DNA from: Gemmatimonas sp.
GTDB lineage: Bacteria > Gemmatimonadota > Gemmatimonadetes > Longimicrobiales > Longimicrobiaceae
Direction of reading: 5' to 3'
Assembly: GCA_009380025.1 (NCBI GenBank)
Contig: WHSP01000003.1
Location: 1-64,000, forward strand
Length of the DNA: 64,000 nt
In this document: positions 11,549-45,009 of the stretch, piece after piece
Numbering within the stretch: position 1 is the first letter of the stretch
Layout of the letters: each line of letters begins with the position of its first letter
The notes under the pieces: model-generated
Told to the model about the DNA's origin: nothing
The model's database searches: none
Seen by the model: the letters and a program-made list of their open reading frames with translations, nothing else
Program-made: the position numbers and the translations under genes

Positions 11549-14080
11549 ATGTTTAGACGTTCGAAGGCGTTGCTCCCGGCGATCCTGGGAGCAATGCTGA
11601 CTATCAGCTTGGTAGGCACGGCCTGGGCGCAGGTGCCTCCTCCCGACCCGTCCGCACCGGCACCGCAGGTGCCTCCTCCTGACTCGGCCGCACCGGGAAC
11701 GCCGGCGCCTCTTCCCGACCCGACCGCATCGGGAACCGGTGTCCTCGTGGACAGCGTGGACGTCCGCGGGAACGAGCGCATGGAATCCGGCGAGATTCGT
11801 GTGGTCGCGGCGCTCCAGCCGGGCTACGAGGCGAGCCGGGTCGATGTCCAGAACGCGATCCGGCGGCTGATGGCGACGGGCAACTTCGAAACCGTCCAGA
11901 TCCTGTCCGAAGGGGACCCAGCCGCGGGTGTAACGCTGACCATCGAGGTCGAAGAGAGGCCCTACATCGTGGGCTTCGACATCGAGGGCCTCGACCGGGT
12001 GAACCCAAGCACGGTGCGCGACACCGTGGGCCTCATTGGCAACCAGCCTCTCAATCCTCAGTTGGTCAAGCGGGCGGAACGCACGATTCGTGATCTCCTC
12101 GCTCTTGAGGGGGTGCAGCTCGCTTCCCTGGATACGGCGATGGTGCCCGCCGGTGAGGACCCCAACTCCTATCGCCTGGTCTTCCAGGTCGAAGAGGGGA
12201 ATCGCCTCGCGGTCGCAGAGATCGACTTCGAGGGAAACGAGGCCTTCGACGACGAAGACCTTCGAGATGCGATCCAGACGAGGGAGGAGGGGTTCTTCTG
12301 GTTCCGGACGGGCCGCTTCGACCGCACGACCTTCCAGGAGGATCTGCTTCAGAACCTGCCAACGTTCTACGGACAAAGCGGCTACATCGACTTCACGGTG
12401 GTCTCCGACTCGATGGTGATCGATCCGGAGACTGGCAAGGCGCGCCTCGTGATCGCGGTCAACGAGGGACCACAGTATCGGCTCGGAGACTTCGGCATCG
12501 AGGGCGCGCGTCGCTTCCCGACCGACCAGATCGAGCGGATGTTCACCAGCCGGCGCCGCTCCGTCCTCGGCCTCCCATTCGGGGGTCGCGACGAACAGGA
12601 ACAGGGCGAGATCTTCGACCGCGCGGCGCTGGATGATGCGACTGCTCGCGTCGAACAGCTCTATAGGAACGAGGGTTACCTGTACGTCTCGGTCCAGCCC
12701 GTGGTCCAACGGGCCGAATCCGAGGACGGCGACCCAGTTGTGAACGTCACCTGGGCGATCTCGGAGGAGAGTCCGTTCTACGTCAACCGGGTGACGATCG
12801 AAGGGAATACGTACACCCACGAATCGGTCATTCGCGATCGGGTGGTCGTCTATCCTGGTGATATCTACAGTGAGGACCGGCTGATCCAGAGCTATCGGAG
12901 CATCGCGGCGCTGGGGTTCTTCGAGACCCCGCTTCCGGAACCGGGCATCGAGCCGAATCCCGAGGATGCAACGGTGGATATCGTCTTCCGGATCGTGGAG
13001 AAATCCACTGCACAGCTCAGCTTCGGGACCGCGATTGGTGGTGGCGGAGTTGGGAGAGCAGGCGGCGTTTCAGGTTTCCTGGGCGTGACCCAGCCGAACC
13101 TCTTCGGTCGGGCCAAGGAGGTCAGCGTTCAGGCCGAGTACGGATACGGGCGGAGCTCGTTCACTGCCTCCTACACGGATCCGGCCCTCTTCGGATCGCG
13201 AAACTCCGGCAGCGTCTCGGTCTTCCACACCGACGATCGCTATCGGGGATTCAGCTTCTCGGATGGCCGCTACGTCCGGACGGGTATTTCGCTCCGCTAC
13301 GGATTCCCGATTCTGAACTTCCGCTGGGCCCGCGGCTTTGCCGGTTACTCACTTTCCAGCATCAGCTACGAGGCGAGGGAGGCGGACGACTGTGCGGCCG
13401 GGAGTATCTTCTGTCAGCCCTCCGCTCTCTCCAGTTCGTTATCGGTCGGGGTTACCAGGGACACGAAGGATCACCCTCTCTTCCCGAGTGTAGGAACGAG
13501 CCAATCGCTCTCGTTGCAGCAGACCGGGGGACCCCTGGGCGGCGATGGAAACTTCCAGAAGCTGACCGGCAACGCCGATTGGTGGATTCCCGTTGGGCAG
13601 TTGGGAGGAGGTGAAGGCGGGGGGCGGCCAATCATCATCACCTTCGGGCTCCAGGCACGGGCTGGTGCGCTGTTCGGCGATGCGGAGCGATTCCCCATCG
13701 AGCGCTTCTGGCTCGGTGGAACGCAGTTCGGGCAGCCGCTTCGGGGGTATGAGGAATCGACGCTAACGCCCTTCGGGTATTTCGACCGGAACAGCGAATT
13801 GATCTCGAGCGGGGACCGACTCGGCGACGCATTCTTAGCGGTCACGGGTGAGTACGCGATCAGGTTCACGGACAACCTTTCACTCTCGGTCTTTAGCGAT
13901 GCCGGGGGCATCTGGAACGATCCGGCTGAGATCAACCCATCTCAGCTCTTCCGAAGCGTTGGCATAGGGGCGATGGTCGTGACTCCATTCGGGCCACTCG
14001 GCCTCGATTACGCCTACGGATTCGACAGGACCAACCCGGGTTGGCAGTTCCACTTCAAGATCAACCAGCCAGGCTTCTGA
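11549..14080 (+). CDS. bamA: Outer-membrane protein assembly factor BamA
   Basis: Core Omp85 insertase that folds beta-barrels into the outer membrane. The 843 residues comprise a signal peptide ('ALLPAILGAMLTISLVGTAWA', cleavage near residue 27), a Pro/Ala-rich stretch of about 36 residues made of a 12-residue repeat (listed separately), several POTRA domains from about residue 65 ('VDSVDVRGNERMESGEIRVV', 'VAEIDFEGNEAFDDEDLRDA', 'VNRVTIEGNTYTHESVIRDR') and a 16-strand-type barrel. The conserved loop-6 motif appears as 'PLRGYEEST', and the protein ends in Phe, the C-terminal BAM signal. It is followed by skp/ompH and lpx genes, a widely conserved order. Confidence 0.96.
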   Translation: MFRRSKALLPAILGAMLTISLVGTAWAQVPPPDPSAPAPQVPPPDSAAPGTPAPLPDPTASGTGVLVDSVDVRGNERMESGEIRVVAALQPGYEASRVDVQNAIRRLMATGNFETVQILSEGDPAAGVTLTIEVEERPYIVGFDIEGLDRVNPSTVRDTVGLIGNQPLNPQLVKRAERTIRDLLALEGVQLASLDTAMVPAGEDPNSYRLVFQVEEGNRLAVAEIDFEGNEAFDDEDLRDAIQTREEGFFWFRTGRFDRTTFQEDLLQNLPTFYGQSGYIDFTVVSDSMVIDPETGKARLVIAVNEGPQYRLGDFGIEGARRFPTDQIERMFTSRRRSVLGLPFGGRDEQEQGEIFDRAALDDATARVEQLYRNEGYLYVSVQPVVQRAESEDGDPVVNVTWAISEESPFYVNRVTIEGNTYTHESVIRDRVVVYPGDIYSEDRLIQSYRSIAALGFFETPLPEPGIEPNPEDATVDIVFRIVEKSTAQLSFGTAIGGGGVGRAGGVSGFLGVTQPNLFGRAKEVSVQAEYGYGRSSFTASYTDPALFGSRNSGSVSVFHTDDRYRGFSFSDGRYVRTGISLRYGFPILNFRWARGFAGYSLSSISYEAREADDCAAGSIFCQPSALSSSLSVGVTRDTKDHPLFPSVGTSQSLSLQQTGGPLGGDGNFQKLTGNADWWIPVGQLGGGEGGGRPIIITFGLQARAGALFGDAERFPIERFWLGGTQFGQPLRGYEESTLTPFGYFDRNSELISSGDRLGDAFLAVTGEYAIRFTDNLSLSVFSDAGGIWNDPAEINPSQLFRSVGIGAMVVTPFGPLGLDYAYGFDRTNPGWQFHFKINQPGF
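11629..11736 (+). repeat. Three 36-bp direct repeats encoding a Pro-rich linker in BamA
   Basis: Copies start at 11629, 11665 and 11701, each 36 bp ('gcaggtgcctcctcc...' pattern). They encode QVPPPDPSAPAP, QVPPPDSAAPGT and PAPLPDPTASGT between the signal peptide and the first POTRA. Copies 1 and 2 are close in sequence; copy 3 is degenerate. Confidence 0.85.
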
Positions 14081-39376: not shown

Positions 39377-40330
39377 CTAGCTGTCGCCATCCGACTTCCG
39401 CAAGTGGTCCACCTCCGTTCGAAGGATCGCGACCATCTCTCCGACGAAGCCGAAGCCGAAGAGCATGAATCCAACCGTCTCCAGGAGGAGAACGAGGGTG
39501 AGCAGCGGCCGATAGCCGAAGGGCGGCATCCAGCCAGCTACCCGCAGCACAATCGCAACGAGCCCGATAAGCACACCGAGAACGATCAACACCAGGCCGG
39601 TCCCACCGAAGAAATGCATCGGCTTCTGGCTGAACTTCAGGTAGAACCACACGACGAGAAGGTCACCGACGCCGACCAGAATCCTCCCCTGCCCGGTGTA
39701 CTTGGAAGTGCCTGCCTTCCGCGGATAGAGCTCGATATCGATCTCCGACACCGTGTATCCGCGCGAGTACGCCAGAACGATGAAGAAGCGGTGCCAATCG
39801 TGCCGCAGCGGAATCTCGTCGAGTATCTCCTTACGAAACGCCTTCATCGAGTTGAGATCCCGGGCCGGTACGTCGAAGAGACGTTTTGACAGGCGGTTGT
39901 AGACCGAGCTCACCGCTTGCTTGTCATAGCTGCCCGTCTTTCGTCCCGCGACGACATCCCACCCCTCGCCTAACTTCATGAGGAAGCGGGGGAATTCCTC
40001 CGGTGTGTGTTGGAGGTCCGCGTCGAAAAGGATGATGTAGTCGCTATCGGCTGCGCCAGCGCCGGTTATCATCGATTCCGTCTTGCCGAGGTTACGGCGA
40101 TGGCGGAGGACACGAGCACGGGGCAGGCATCGCGCCGCCTCTAGCGCCGCCTCGTACGTCCCATCGGTCGAGCCGTCGTCGACGAGGATGATTTCCCCGT
40201 CGAGCTCGTGCCGCTCGAACGACTCGACCACGGCCCGGAAGAGGGCCGGGATGTTCTCGATTTCGTTGTAGGCGGGAATGACGACCGCGAAGTTCCGGCG
40301 GAGGTCGGTCGTCGCGGGCGCTGTCTTCAC
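39377..40330 (-). CDS. GT2 glycosyltransferase with C-terminal membrane helices (DPM/ArnC-like)
   Basis: A 317-residue enzyme resembling dolichyl-phosphate glucose/mannose synthases and ArnC. GT-A motifs are 'VVIPAYNEIENIPALFRAVV', 'ILVDDGSTDGTYEAAL' and 'LFDADLQHTPEEFPRFL'. Two or three membrane helices occupy about residues 225-300 ('GTGLVLIVLGVLIGLVAIVL'). It starts with GTG 40330, overlapping the rpoN stop, so it is the last gene of the kds-lpt-rpoN operon. It likely makes a polyprenyl-phosphate sugar. This is the second such synthase in the window and differs from the soluble one at 31670. Confidence 0.9.
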   Translation of the reverse strand: MKTAPATTDLRRNFAVVIPAYNEIENIPALFRAVVESFERHELDGEIILVDDGSTDGTYEAALEAARCLPRARVLRHRRNLGKTESMITGAGAADSDYIILFDADLQHTPEEFPRFLMKLGEGWDVVAGRKTGSYDKQAVSSVYNRLSKRLFDVPARDLNSMKAFRKEILDEIPLRHDWHRFFIVLAYSRGYTVSEIDIELYPRKAGTSKYTGQGRILVGVGDLLVVWFYLKFSQKPMHFFGGTGLVLIVLGVLIGLVAIVLRVAGWMPPFGYRPLLTLVLLLETVGFMLFGFGFVGEMVAILRTEVDHLRKSDGDS

Positions 40331-41829
40331 ACCCTCTTTCTCATCCGAGCGGAGAGGATGCCCAGCTGATCTCGGTACTTCGCTACGGTTCGACGGGCGA
40401 TCTGGATGCCCTCTTTCTTCAGGATGTTCACGATCGCCTGGTCCGTGAGTGGCTTCGCTGGGTTCTCTTCCGACACAAGTTTCTGGATCTGTGCCTTGAT
40501 GCCACGGGCCGAAACTTCTTCACCCGACGTGGTCGAGAGTCCCGAAGAGAAGAAGAACTTCAGGGGAAGCACACCGCGTGGCGTCTGGACGAACTTCTCG
40601 TTCGTCACTCGGGAGACGGTCGACTCGTGCATGTCGATCACCTCGGCGACCTCTCTCAAGGTCAGCGGCTTCAGGTACTGCACGCCCTTCTCGAAGAAAT
40701 CCCGCTGTCGATCGACGATGAAGTTCATCACCTTGAGCATCGTCTGGCGGCGCTGCTCGATCGCCTGGATCATCCAGTTGGCGGAGTTGAGCTTGTTGGA
40801 GATGAACTCCTTGTTCTCGCCGGCGAACTTCTTCTTGTCTTTCGCGATCTCGCGGTAGGTACGGGAAAGCTTCAGGCGCGGGAGGTTCGTGTCGTTCAGG
40901 AAGACCAGGTAGTCTTCGCCGACCTTGTCGACGACGAGGTCGGGGGTGATGTAGTTGTCCCCGTGGTTCCCGTACTTGAGGCCTGGCTTGGGATCGAGCC
41001 TCGCGATCTCGTCCGCGGCGTCCTGAACGTCTCGCGGAGTGATGGAGAGATCCTTGGAGATCTCGGACCACCGATGGTTGATGAGCTGATCGAAGTAGTC
41101 TCGCGTGATGCGGAAACAGAGTCGGTTCTCGAGCATTTCCTCGAACTCGCTCGGTTCCAGATCGGCGACTCCATTGCTCGCGGCAAGCTCCTGCGTGATC
41201 TCATCGCGCAGCTGAAGGAGGATGCACTCGCGGAGATCCCGCGCTGCGATCCCCGGGGGATCGAAGCCCTGGATCGTGGCGAGCATCCTCTCCGCATCTT
41301 CGAACGTATAGGGCGCGCGCTCGCGCGCGGTTTCTCCCCAATCGCCCCCATGCTCGAGCAGGAACTCGTTGAGAGAGCGAACGACCTCCTCGAGGGGGCA
41401 TTCGAGGTACCCCTCGTCGCTGATGTTGCCGATGATCTCTTCGCCGAGCAGGAGCTCTCGAGCCGACAGACGGAGTAGGGTGAGCTGATCGTGAAGGTGG
41501 TCGGCAAGATCGCGGGTGGCCACCGAAACCGGCTCGAAGTACTCCCGCTCCTCGTACTCCTCCCTGCGGCCTCCGGTCTCGAACCCGTTGAGGAGAATCT
41601 CTTCCCAATCGATCTCCTCCTCGTCGGTCTCCTTCTCGGTCTCGGCCTCGACCGGCTCCTCGATCGCGTCCTCCGCCATTTCGAGGAACGGGTTGTTCAG
41701 GAGCTCCTGTTTGAGGTGCTGCTGCAGGTCGAGCAGGGGCATATAGAGAAGATCCATCGCCTGGTACAGGCGAGGGTTGATCTTCATCTCCTGCTTGAGC
41801 TGCGTTCCCTGGTATAGGCCCGTCTTCAT
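40327..41829 (-). CDS. rpoN: RNA polymerase sigma-54 factor RpoN
   Basis: Alternative sigma factor that needs enhancer-binding activators. The 500-residue product has region I ('LKQEMKINPRLYQAMDLLYM', 'LQQHLKQELLNNPFLEMAED'), an acidic region II (about 55-90), the core-binding region and the C-terminal RpoN box 'ARRTVAKYRDQLGI' (canonical ARRTVAKYREE). ATG 41829 is preferred to the upstream TTG 41832. It lies 12 nt after lptB, the same lptA-lptB-rpoN order as in Enterobacteria. No bacterial enhancer-binding protein is present in this window. Confidence 0.96.
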   Translation of the reverse strand: MKTGLYQGTQLKQEMKINPRLYQAMDLLYMPLLDLQQHLKQELLNNPFLEMAEDAIEEPVEAETEKETDEEEIDWEEILLNGFETGGRREEYEEREYFEPVSVATRDLADHLHDQLTLLRLSARELLLGEEIIGNISDEGYLECPLEEVVRSLNEFLLEHGGDWGETARERAPYTFEDAERMLATIQGFDPPGIAARDLRECILLQLRDEITQELAASNGVADLEPSEFEEMLENRLCFRITRDYFDQLINHRWSEISKDLSITPRDVQDAADEIARLDPKPGLKYGNHGDNYITPDLVVDKVGEDYLVFLNDTNLPRLKLSRTYREIAKDKKKFAGENKEFISNKLNSANWMIQAIEQRRQTMLKVMNFIVDRQRDFFEKGVQYLKPLTLREVAEVIDMHESTVSRVTNEKFVQTPRGVLPLKFFFSSGLSTTSGEEVSARGIKAQIQKLVSEENPAKPLTDQAIVNILKKEGIQIARRTVAKYRDQLGILSARMRKRV

Positions 41830-41841
41830 CAAGGTATTTCC

Positions 41842-42675
41842 TTACTCAGGATAGGTATATCGCTGACGCATACGGGCGGTGAGCGTCGGGCCGAGATAGA
41901 TCTCGGCGACCTCATCATTCCATACTAGTTCAGAAACCGTTCCAGAGACTCGGACCCTGCCATCGTACATGATGTAGGCTCGATCGACGATATCCAGAGT
42001 CTGCTCGACGTTGTGGTCGCTAATGAGGACGCCGATGTTCCTTCGCTTCAGGTCCGACACGATCTGTTGGATGTCATGAACGGCGATCGGGTCGACTCCC
42101 GCAAAGGGCTCGTCGAGGAGCATGAACTTGGGCTGACCAACAAGCGCGCGGGTGATCTCGAGCCGCCGCCGCTCTCCGCCCGAAAGGGCGTATGCCTTCG
42201 ATTCCCGCAAGTGCTTGATCCCCAGCTCATCCAGCAGCACCTCCAATCGACCATGCTGCTCTTTCTTCGTGAGGCCCAGCATCTGAAGGATCGCGAGCAC
42301 GTTCTGTTCGACCGTAAGCTTCCGGAATACCGACGGCTCCTGGGCGAGGTAGCCGATACCCTTTCGGGCGCGCTGGTACATCGGAACACCGGTCACGTCT
42401 TCATCGTTGAGGAGCACCCGTCCGCTGTCCGGCGCGATGAGGCCGACCATCATGTAGAACGTAGTCGTCTTCCCCGCCCCGTTCGGCCCGAGAAGCCCGA
42501 CGATTTCTCCCTGGGTGAGACGAATCGCCACATCGTTCACGACCCGCCGCTTACGATAGATCTTCACCAGCCCCGAGGCCTCGAGCGTCGAGTTCCCCGG
42601 AACCATCCGGCGAGCCGCCGGAACGACATTGCTCGCCGCTCCGTCGCGCGTTCCGGGGAGCTCAGCCTCGAGCAT
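41842..42675 (-). CDS. lptB: LPS export ABC transporter ATPase LptB
   Basis: Powers extraction of LPS from the inner membrane by LptFG. From ATG 42675, with an excellent 'ggaggtgaca' ribosome-binding site, the product is 277 residues. The track's longer frame is an antisense reading of LptA-like repeats. Motifs are Walker A '[17 protein letters not shown]', '[17 protein letters not shown]', signature '[15 protein letters not shown]' and Walker B '[14 protein letters not shown]', with the switch His in '[11 protein letters not shown]'. The start lies 14 nt inside the end of the LptA-like gene. About 35 extra N-terminal residues precede the usual start of homology. Confidence 0.95.
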
Positions 42676-44455
42676 TGTCACCTCCCCCTGCCGACGGCGG
42701 GTCGCCGTCCGCTGGCTGGATCTCGTCGGCAGCGTCAGGGCCGTCCGCAGCGTCGGGGTTGTCCGGAACGTCGGGGTTGTCCGGAACGTCGGGGTTTTCC
42801 GGAACATCGGGGTTGCCCGGAGCGTCGGGAGCGTCGGCGTCGTCCGGATCGTCAACGTCGTCCAGGGCGTCGGCGTCGTCCGTGGCAGGGTCGTCCTCCC
42901 CTGGCGGCAACGCCTCGAGAAAGACGCCCTGACGCAGGCCAACTACGTCGGCCACCTGTAGCTCACCCTCCGCCAACTCCAGCTCGATTCGATCACCGAC
43001 AAGGAAGTTGACATTCTTCCGGGCATCGGGGGTACCCCGTTGTTCCTCCGGGGTCATCCGATAGAGGGACTGCGCGGAGCCGAGGGCGACCAGACGGCGG
43101 ATCTCCACCGAGCGAGCTCCTGGTTCGTCGACCGGTCGGGGTTCCGGAACGGCGATCGAGTCGGGCTCGACCGCCTCGAAGTACCCGATAATCGTGTCCC
43201 CCGTGATCCAATCGCGAGCCAGAACTTCAGGTGTCGCGGCGGGTGGCGCGGCCACTGGGAGGCCGAGTGAATCCACGAGAACGGAATCGACCGCCAGGGT
43301 GTCAATCAAATCGACCGCCGGGATGTCAACCAAATCGACCGCCGGGATGTCAATCGAGTCGACCGCCGGGGTGTCAATCGAGTCGACCGTCGGGATGTCG
43401 ATCGTATCGACGGCCGGGATGTCAATCGAATCGATCGCCGGGGTGTCGATCGCATCGACGGCCGGGGTGGCGGCCGAATCGGCCGCTATGGTATCGATCG
43501 ACTCGCCCCGGGCGTTTCCGACTGCGAAGACCTGTTCAATCTCCTGGCTGGCGAACCTGGCATCGAGCGAATCAGCCAGGAGCCGGAACGTCTCGGACGC
43601 GGCGGTGGCTCTTACTCCAGTCGTATCGGAGGCAATGGTTGCGACCGCGCGCTGGATCGAGTCGTTGGCAAAGAAGAGCTGAAGGTCCGGTGCGTCGACT
43701 CGGAGATCCTCGCCCAAGAGCGCAGCGTCGGTCTGGGAATGGACGTGCTCGATCGAGCCCTCGACCATACGCGCCTGGACTATCTCACCCTCCAGCGTGA
43801 ATTCCTGGCTTAGCAGCCGCGCACTCTGCCGGAGCTCGAGATCCTCGGTGTCCGAATCATAGCGGGCCTCACCCGCCGTTGCCGTCAGGTCCGTACGGGT
43901 GATCAGGACGGCCCCGGTCGCGGTGAGGTCATTCTGTCCGATGATCAGTACTCGATCGGCAACCAGGTTGAGTGGTTCCCCGTCGGACGTGGAATCGCTC
44001 GGCTGCAAGACCAGGGTCGGCCGCTGCCCTGCGTTCACCTGTGACAGAGGCCGCTCGTCGGTAGCCCGGAAGTACTCCAGCTCCGGACCCTCCAGTGTCG
44101 AGCCCTCTTCTTGATTCGTGAAAATGACGTTGCCGGTGGCATAGAGTCGACCGATCTCGGCGTTGTACGTCGCGTCGTCACTCGTCAACGACTGGATCGT
44201 ATCCTGAAAGAAGACGTCGCCGTGCAGCTCGAGATCACGAAGCGCGCGGCTGATCTCACCGGAGTTCGCCCTCAGCTGGGCTCCATCGGTGCAATTGACG
44301 GTGAAAGGATCGTGCGAGATCACCACCGTATCGCCGCCAACCACGGTCTGCGTCGTCCGCCCCGGTGCGTCGTACGCGCACGAGCGTTCCTGCGCCGACA
44401 CCACCCCAGGCAGCGCGGACAGAAGCACGAGCAGGCGAGCGGCGCGGTAGATCAT
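42662..44455 (-). CDS. lptA: LptA/OstA-like periplasmic protein with two tandem-repeat tracts
   Basis: Predicted periplasmic bridge protein of LPS export. The start ATG 44455 overlaps the lptC stop in TGATG. After a signal peptide ('[14 protein letters not shown]'), OstA-type beta-jellyroll sequence is visible ('[20 protein letters not shown]', '[20 protein letters not shown]', '[20 protein letters not shown]'). At 597 residues it is about three times the E. coli LptA length. Residues about 325-390 contain eight 8-residue repeats of the form 'SIDIPAVD', and the C-terminus holds five 6-residue 'NPDVPD' repeats in an acidic Asp/Pro-rich tail. A further non-repeat beta region separates the tracts. 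The lptC-X-lptB position supports LptA function; the repeats are unexplained. Confidence 0.85.
42734..42823 (-). repeat. Five 18-bp tandem repeats (NPDVPD) in the LptA-like gene
   Basis: Plus-strand units begin at 42734, 42752, 42770, 42788 and 42806, consensus 'gtcggggttgtccggaac'. Two units are identical and a third differs by one base. Degenerate Asp/Ala-rich sequence follows. They encode an acidic, Pro-rich C-terminal tail. Confidence 0.9.
43287..43478 (-). repeat. Eight 24-bp tandem repeats (SIDIPAVD) in the LptA-like gene
   Basis: Plus-strand units of exactly 24 bp start at 43287, 43311, 43335, 43359, 43383, 43407, 43431 and 43455, consensus 'tcgaccgccgggatgtcaatcgaa'. Each encodes an 8-residue unit such as [16 protein letters not shown] or LVDIPAVD. 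The outermost units are the most degenerate. The frame is preserved throughout. Confidence 0.95.
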
Positions 44456-45009
44456 CAAAACGGCACGTCACCGGATTCTCCGACGATCGCTTCGGTCTGG
44501 GCGCCCATGACCTCCCACGTCCGGAACTGCGTATCGGAGCGGAAGCTCGTACCGCGGCTCACTCGCCCGCCCTCGTAGAGCGTGAAGGGCCGGTTCGATG
44601 AGAGGCTATCGGTCCGCACATCGTAGATGAGTTGCTCTGTTTCGAGCCGTCGCTCGCCGTTGACTCCCTCGGCGATGAGCACGACGTCTTCACGCGCCAC
44701 GAAGCGGCCCGTCTCCATGTTGTAGTCCCCCAGCTTGGACGTGAGCTCGCCTGCCTCGGCGCCGGTTTCGCTATAGAACGTCACCCGTACTCCGCGGAGG
44801 TCGAACGTACGCTCCGAGTCGTAGATGTACGCGGTGTCGCTCCTCAGGTCCGCGGAGCGAACCCCATCCTTCGTGATGACGTGCCGGATGCTGTCAGCGA
44901 CTTTGTCGGCGGGCAGATCGAACGCCTCGGATGTCGCGGATGGCGTCGTGGCCTCGCGACCACAGCCGGCGGCCAGCACCGCCACCAAGGGAAGTACGAG
45001 CCAGCGCAT
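44455..45009 (-). CDS. lptC: LPS export protein LptC (lipoprotein form)
   Basis: Bitopic or lipid-anchored partner that passes LPS from LptBFG to LptA. The 184-residue product begins 'MRWLVLPLVAVLAAGCGREA', a clear lipobox (LAAGC), so it is probably an anchored lipoprotein instead of the transmembrane form of E. coli. The rest shows the LptC/OstA beta pattern ('SADLRSDTAYIYDSERTFDL', 'YNMETGRFVAREDVVLIAEG', 'LETEQLIYDVRTDSL'). It lies 3 nt after the kdsD stop and overlaps the LptA-like gene. Confidence 0.88.
   Translation of the reverse strand: MRWLVLPLVAVLAAGCGREATTPSATSEAFDLPADKVADSIRHVITKDGVRSADLRSDTAYIYDSERTFDLRGVRVTFYSETGAEAGELTSKLGDYNMETGRFVAREDVVLIAEGVNGERRLETEQLIYDVRTDSLSSNRPFTLYEGGRVSRGTSFRSDTQFRTWEVMGAQTEAIVGESGDVPF

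Follow-up and report, generated by a model that had tools for sequence, protein, structure and literature searches.

The window, a 64,000-nucleotide stretch of DNA from a soil-type member of the Gemmatimonadota near Longimicrobiaceae, carries on its reverse strand a gene cluster whose order, kdsD-kdsC-lptC-lptA-lptB-rpoN, is identical to that of E. coli K-12. The gene studied here, lptA (42662-44455), is a single uninterrupted frame encoding 597 amino acids, with its ATG at 44455. It sits between lptC (44455-45009; TIGR04409, 64.6 bits against a cut-off of 38) and lptB (41842-42675; TIGR04406, 350 bits against a cut-off of 240), as a sequence-only reading of the window had it, and both neighbours pass the NCBIfam equivalog cut-offs. 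Nearly all of the named LptB genes closest to this one come from Gemmatimonadota. The lptA ATG and the lptC stop overlap (TGATG), and the 3' end of lptA overlaps the start of lptB by 14 bp. Profile searches and comparison with the E. coli gene order identified a kdsD-like gene with SIS and CBS domains upstream, as in E. coli (45013-46068), and rpoN, encoding sigma-54, as the next gene downstream (40327-41829), both also on the reverse strand.

In E. coli, LptA is a periplasmic protein that hands LPS from LptC to LptD along the groove of a beta-jellyroll. The 597-residue protein matched the LptA/LptD N-terminal (OstA) profile PF03968 at 24.0 bits, above the cut-off of 20.4, and scored 20.3 against the proteobacterial equivalog TIGR03002, below its cut-off of 71.7. 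A six-frame search of the genome with PF03968 missed lptA, and E. coli LptA gave only a weak local match to a profile of the orthologue alignment (probability 5%); the identity of the protein as LptA is therefore based on fold and gene order. An AlphaFold model built with 36 orthologues contains a jellyroll predicted at high confidence, made up of an N-terminal OstA part (residues 24-320; 43496-44386; strands 26-29 to 305-319; pLDDT mostly >90) and a C-terminal part with a conserved DWI-x-GDTI motif (residues 414-515; 42911-43216; strands 416-429 to 509-513). Foldseek matched the model to LptH (4uu4, TMt 0.77 at 2.2 A) and LptA (2r1a_B, TMt 0.79), and also returned structures of LptD, which were the top matches, and of LptC; a weak LptC profile match was found within LptA at residues 60-132. 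The Pfam match, the model and the Foldseek results bear out the proposal that the N-terminal part is LptA/OstA-like and, with lptC and lptB on either side, that the gene is lptA.

A Sec-type signal peptide was read from the sequence at residues ~1-22 (44390-44455), and the N-termini of the orthologues are alike. By eye and by a simple heuristic the signal peptide is cleavable and the protein has no membrane anchor. The Lpt partners LptB, LptC, LptF/LptG and LptD_2 (contig C111) are encoded in the same genome; LptD was found there with PF19838 (LptD_2), and PF04453 gave no match. The product of 42662-44455 is an LptA that is ordinary apart from a lineage-specific, repeat-expanded, probably flexible loop and an acidic tail.

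Two further features of the export proteins were observed. LptC carries a lipoprotein signal, LAAGC, in the window (44455-45009), and relatives have LAAAC and LAGC (L062:9444-10016 and L070:13426-14007), which suggests that LptC is lipid-anchored here, replacing the transmembrane anchor that holds E. coli LptC. In LptA, Cys26 and Cys55 are invariant in the 36-sequence alignment, and in 107 of 112 LptAs two or more cysteines lie near the N-terminus, whereas E. coli LptA has none; the pair likely forms a disulfide.

Two different tandem arrays lie in frame within lptA, together contributing ~94 amino acids. Eight 24-bp units encode octads at residues 326-389 (43289-43480), in a loop between the strands at residues 305-319 and 416-429, and each matches the consensus GATTCGATTGACACCCCGGCGGTC at 19-23 of 24 bases; the eight units placed earlier at 43287-43478 are this array in another phase. 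Five 18-bp units encode NPDVPD hexads at residues 548-577 (42725-42814), the number and sequence of the units being as first read. Units were placed by register alignment and with Tandem Repeats Finder, which reported 7.6 copies of a 24-bp period (score 247) and 4.8 copies of an 18-bp one (score 132), the highest scores among called genes in 406 kb of the genome. The octad array adjoins a degenerate unit 0, ESIDTIAA (43481-43504), which matches the consensus at 17 of 24 bases; random in-frame units average 7.5 and reach 17 at P=0.0005. Aspartate is present at position 1 in all eight octads and at position 4 in seven, with aliphatic I, V or A at several positions. A pN/pS of 0.79 among the units points to weak constraint. 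Comparison of the octads with PDB sequences and with plasmids gave no meaningful match, and a literature search on tandem repeats in LptA, or on LptA in Gemmatimonadetes, returned nothing relevant among the papers searched.

In the AlphaFold model, most of the protein outside the octad loop and the tail exceeds pLDDT 90; prediction of the full-length structure, as proposed by the sequence-only reading, recovered the OstA jellyroll. Within residues 322-407, all but one residue fall below 50, and the octads lie at 40-46. A second model was built for an orthologue with a 14-residue linker (L008), and its flanking strands were unchanged; the octads are thus a loop that interrupts one jellyroll, not an extension of it. 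From the order of the strands, the loop would project side-on to the bridge. It is probably flexible, the evidence for disorder being a stretch of the AlphaFold model that has low confidence and few homologues; against disorder, the octads keep their aspartate and aliphatic positions and fall on the ordered side of the charge-hydropathy plot (H 0.58, boundary 0.49).

LptA homologues were found in 59 of 61 relatives and in 197 of 200 sampled Gemmatimonadota genomes. After trimming of their starts, all 53 orthologues compared were long (454-792 aa, median 543), and the length of LptA is on these grounds ancestral. Expansion of the protein by about threefold, as first described, holds against E. 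coli LptA (185 aa) but not against Gemmatimonadota orthologues that have no array and span 454-792 aa, and the repeats are not what makes LptA long. Across ~100 orthologues, the linker between the two flanking strands mostly has 5-61 residues, most commonly 15, against 93 here; it exceeds 80 residues in only six, the present LptA among them. The comparison covers one genome of the species; its genus sister has an unrelated linker of 48 residues and no octad array. The repeat region is clade-specific, as had been anticipated.

Unit 0 lies on a conserved loop edge (ARGE-x-x-DT), and its ARGESIDT aligns with ARGESWDTI or ARGEAIDT of relatives that have no array. Since unit 0 overlaps this edge, GES-x-DT, the origin of the octads is best explained by a permissive loop that expanded through strand slippage, in keeping with the slipped-strand replication that the sequence-only reading invoked for variation in copy number; we infer slipped-strand duplication as the mechanism from the sequences of the units and of the loop edge.

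Repeats recur in LptA across the phylum. Arrays scoring >=80 were found in 15% of LptAs (13% of clusters), compared with 1-3% of other genes, and most of them sit in other loops and have other units: ALTDSIA in L045, PDSGQEIAAPPD in L047, ADSAEA in L050, AGDSTDV in L054 and PDTTRA in L113. The period is divisible by three in 76 of 83 repeats. One of the strong arrays, in L047, has five copies of a 36-bp unit. Elsewhere in the window, a 36-bp x 3 tandem repeat (11628-11736; Tandem Repeats Finder score 141) lies directly upstream of a BamA/Omp85-like gene that contains 13097-14065.

Taken together, we consider it probable that the gene encodes a Gemmatimonadota LptA with a long core, in which slippage has expanded a flexible, tolerated octad loop that does not set the length of the bridge. 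LptA would carry LPS between LptC and LptD through its jellyroll groove, much as in E. coli. In this phylum the jellyroll itself is ~2.5 times longer than in E. coli; hypervariable loops break it up, and a low-complexity tail follows it. One inter-strand loop, of ~15 residues in most relatives, would have grown to 93 here by 24-bp slipped-strand duplication starting at the conserved edge, and the tail would have acquired its 18-bp array by the same route. The octads would then form a flexible, acidic loop of D-S/T-hydrophobic composition off the side of the bridge, tolerated while neither carrying LPS nor setting length. Such a loop may be near-neutral or weakly functional; plain neutrality is opposed by the far greater richness of LptA in repeats than other genes and by the shared bias towards D-[ST]-Phi described below.

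The sequence-only reading had instead suggested that the octads may form an extended spacer or a regular beta structure and so fix bridge length across the periplasm. The regular eight-residue period, the conserved aspartate and aliphatic positions and the ordered-side composition would fit such a role, but the array occupies a loop that joins two strands within one jellyroll, most orthologues manage with ~15 residues there, and the linker of the genus sister differs in both sequence and length. Regular beta structure finds no backing in the model, with the octads at pLDDT 40-46, although their composition partly allows it. On balance we reject a bridge-setting spacer as very improbable. Still less credible is that the arrays are an artefact of assembly: the genome is a single draft in 478 contigs, yet the units differ from one another by point changes, both arrays stay in frame, and analogous arrays occur in lptA of related genomes. 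The acidic, Pro/Asp-rich tail (residues 516-597; 42665-42910), in turn, had been proposed to bind the cell wall or LptD. It has low model confidence (residues 539-597 mostly pLDDT <50) and falls on the disordered side of the Uversky plot. Its net charge of -0.33 per residue and the regular Pro-Asp period of the NPDVPD units could suit an element that binds peptidoglycan, cations or LptD. However, among 98 orthologue tails just 12 reach a net charge per residue of -0.15 or below, the median being +0.04, and the tail sequence is not conserved in the orthologue alignment. A conserved binding role is unlikely, and we give little credence to one in this protein.

The loops share a tripeptide, D-[S/T]-[AILMTV] (hereafter D-[ST]-Phi), which was counted alongside two controls, the reverse motif and a motif with Glu replacing Asp. 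LptA of the window has 17 such sites, nine of them in the 93-residue linker, where shuffled sequences gave 1.6. Across the phylum, LptA has 1362 sites against 253 expected (5.4x), with the reverse motif at 0.77x and the Glu motif at 0.68x. Counts over orthologues are phylogenetically non-independent, cluster-level tests excepted. Low-hydrophobic segments of 42 non-redundant LptAs held 331 sites against 66, and tails beyond the OstA core held 53 against eight reverse and three Glu motifs (sign test over 39 clusters, p=7e-4). In LptD the enrichment was 3.7x in low-hydrophobic segments and 2.9x overall, a figure that should be diluted by several LptD reading frames in the set that look wrong. N-terminal linker repeats were found in LptD, ADTLPGDTLPPDALPADTLPADTLPLDTLP in L286 and PVDTVPVDTVPVDTVP in L283, with motifs including DTLPADTLP and VDTVPVDTVP. 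In four genomes (L286, L283, L280 and L244) a D-[ST]-Phi-rich linker stands right behind the signal peptide of LptD. Omp85 proteins were enriched 1.8x phylum-wide and LptF/LptG only 1.2x. The genome's own LptF/LptG (L179:11380-12981) has six sites against 1.3 expected, and a DSA/DSV/DSL-rich insertion with an 18-bp tandem repeat ahead of its last transmembrane segments. E. coli LptA has no such site and E. coli LptD has one. On the Bacteroidota/Ignavibacteria side, where the comparison covers a single example, an Ignavibacteria LptA near lptB (L176:3043) has 11 sites against one reverse motif.

Aspartate followed by S/T and then A, I, L, M, T or V is the O-glycosylation motif of Bacteroidota, where about half of non-cytoplasmic proteins bear it (PMC12871550). 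Enrichment of the motif has been placed chiefly in Bacteroidota, Fibrobacterota being similar, and the origin of the system has been posed as a question (PMC12871550). The same motif carries glycans in P. gingivalis, where O-glycoproteins include LptD, LptF and BamA (PMC8729774). The octads, together with the related repeats in other loops, might accordingly be read as arrays of Bacteroidota-type O-glycosylation sites under selection for site number, with glycans on LptA and LptD loops shielding the bridge or holding the loops extended. The density of sites in the octad linker would be expected on such a reading, as would the directional, Asp-specific enrichment in LptA, its persistence in non-redundant segments and tails, the enrichment in LptD with its own repeats and in Omp85, its lack in E. 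coli LptA, and the glycosylation of motif-bearing counterparts in P. gingivalis.

The remaining exported proteins, which were chosen by a simple signal-peptide heuristic, speak against it. In the genome of the window they reach 1.04x over whole mature sequences and 0.72x in low-hydrophobic segments, those of the genus sister reach 0.69x, and exported proteins of the genome and the genus together have 65 sites against 62 reverse motifs. This contrasts with the wide distribution of the motif in Bacteroidota. A general, Bacteroidota-like O-glycosylation in this genome is thus unsupported. Moreover, the first-position site is lost in three of eight octads (S to L or A), and the starts of OstA strands in the phylum are themselves rich in D-[ST]-Phi. 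Exported proteins of three Longimicrobiaceae-like genomes (G005, G008 and G013) showed a mild enrichment of 1.5-2.2x, and the window's own genus none. A literature search on O-glycosylation in Gemmatimonadota returned nothing relevant among the papers searched. A glycosylation system of restricted range in Gemmatimonadota is possible, as is a purely structural D-[ST]-Phi bias spreading from OstA strand starts. We consider selection for glycosylation sites a minority reading of the octads, at perhaps a fifth of our belief, and multiple O-glycosylation of LptA and LptD throughout the phylum at D-S/T-hydrophobic sites, with the loop repeats as site arrays, marginally less likely than that.

A tolerated, slippage-expanded loop probably accounts for the array, and the case as first framed, with repeats that set bridge length, is unremarkable; the interest lies in the phylum-wide D-S/T-Phi signature. 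LptA and LptD of Gemmatimonadota have fast-evolving loops with differing repeats and one common tripeptide, which is the sugar-attachment motif of Bacteroidota. The signature bears on where the O-glycosylation system arose (PMC12871550). If glycosylation were real, the Bacteroidota-type system would reach another phylum, focused on proteins of outer-membrane biogenesis, and glycopeptides would be expected on LptA and LptD of Gemmatimonas or Longimicrobium.

Among known systems, the protein is most readily compared with E. coli LptA (YhbN) and Pseudomonas LptH, with which it shares operon position, signal peptide and OstA jellyroll. E. coli LptA has 185 residues, no cysteine and no D-[ST]-Phi, whereas the present protein has 597 residues, a jellyroll of ~400 residues, two invariant N-terminal cysteines, and long loops and a tail. 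Because the length of LptA varies across phyla, ~185 residues was not treated as defining. The Bacteroidota/Ignavibacteria OstA-like LptA (L176:3043, 505 aa) is similarly long, encoded beside lptB and rich in D-[ST]-Phi, but has no tandem octads. LptC and the N-terminal OstA domain of LptD have the same fold; unlike them, the present protein has neither a membrane anchor nor a barrel, and separate genes for LptC (adjacent) and LptD_2 are present. The likeness to Bacteroidota O-glycosylation lies in the site motif of periplasmic proteins, LptD and BamA among them (PMC8729774, PMC12871550), and the difference in the other exported proteins of this genome, which are not enriched, and in the sites themselves, which here are predicted from sequence.
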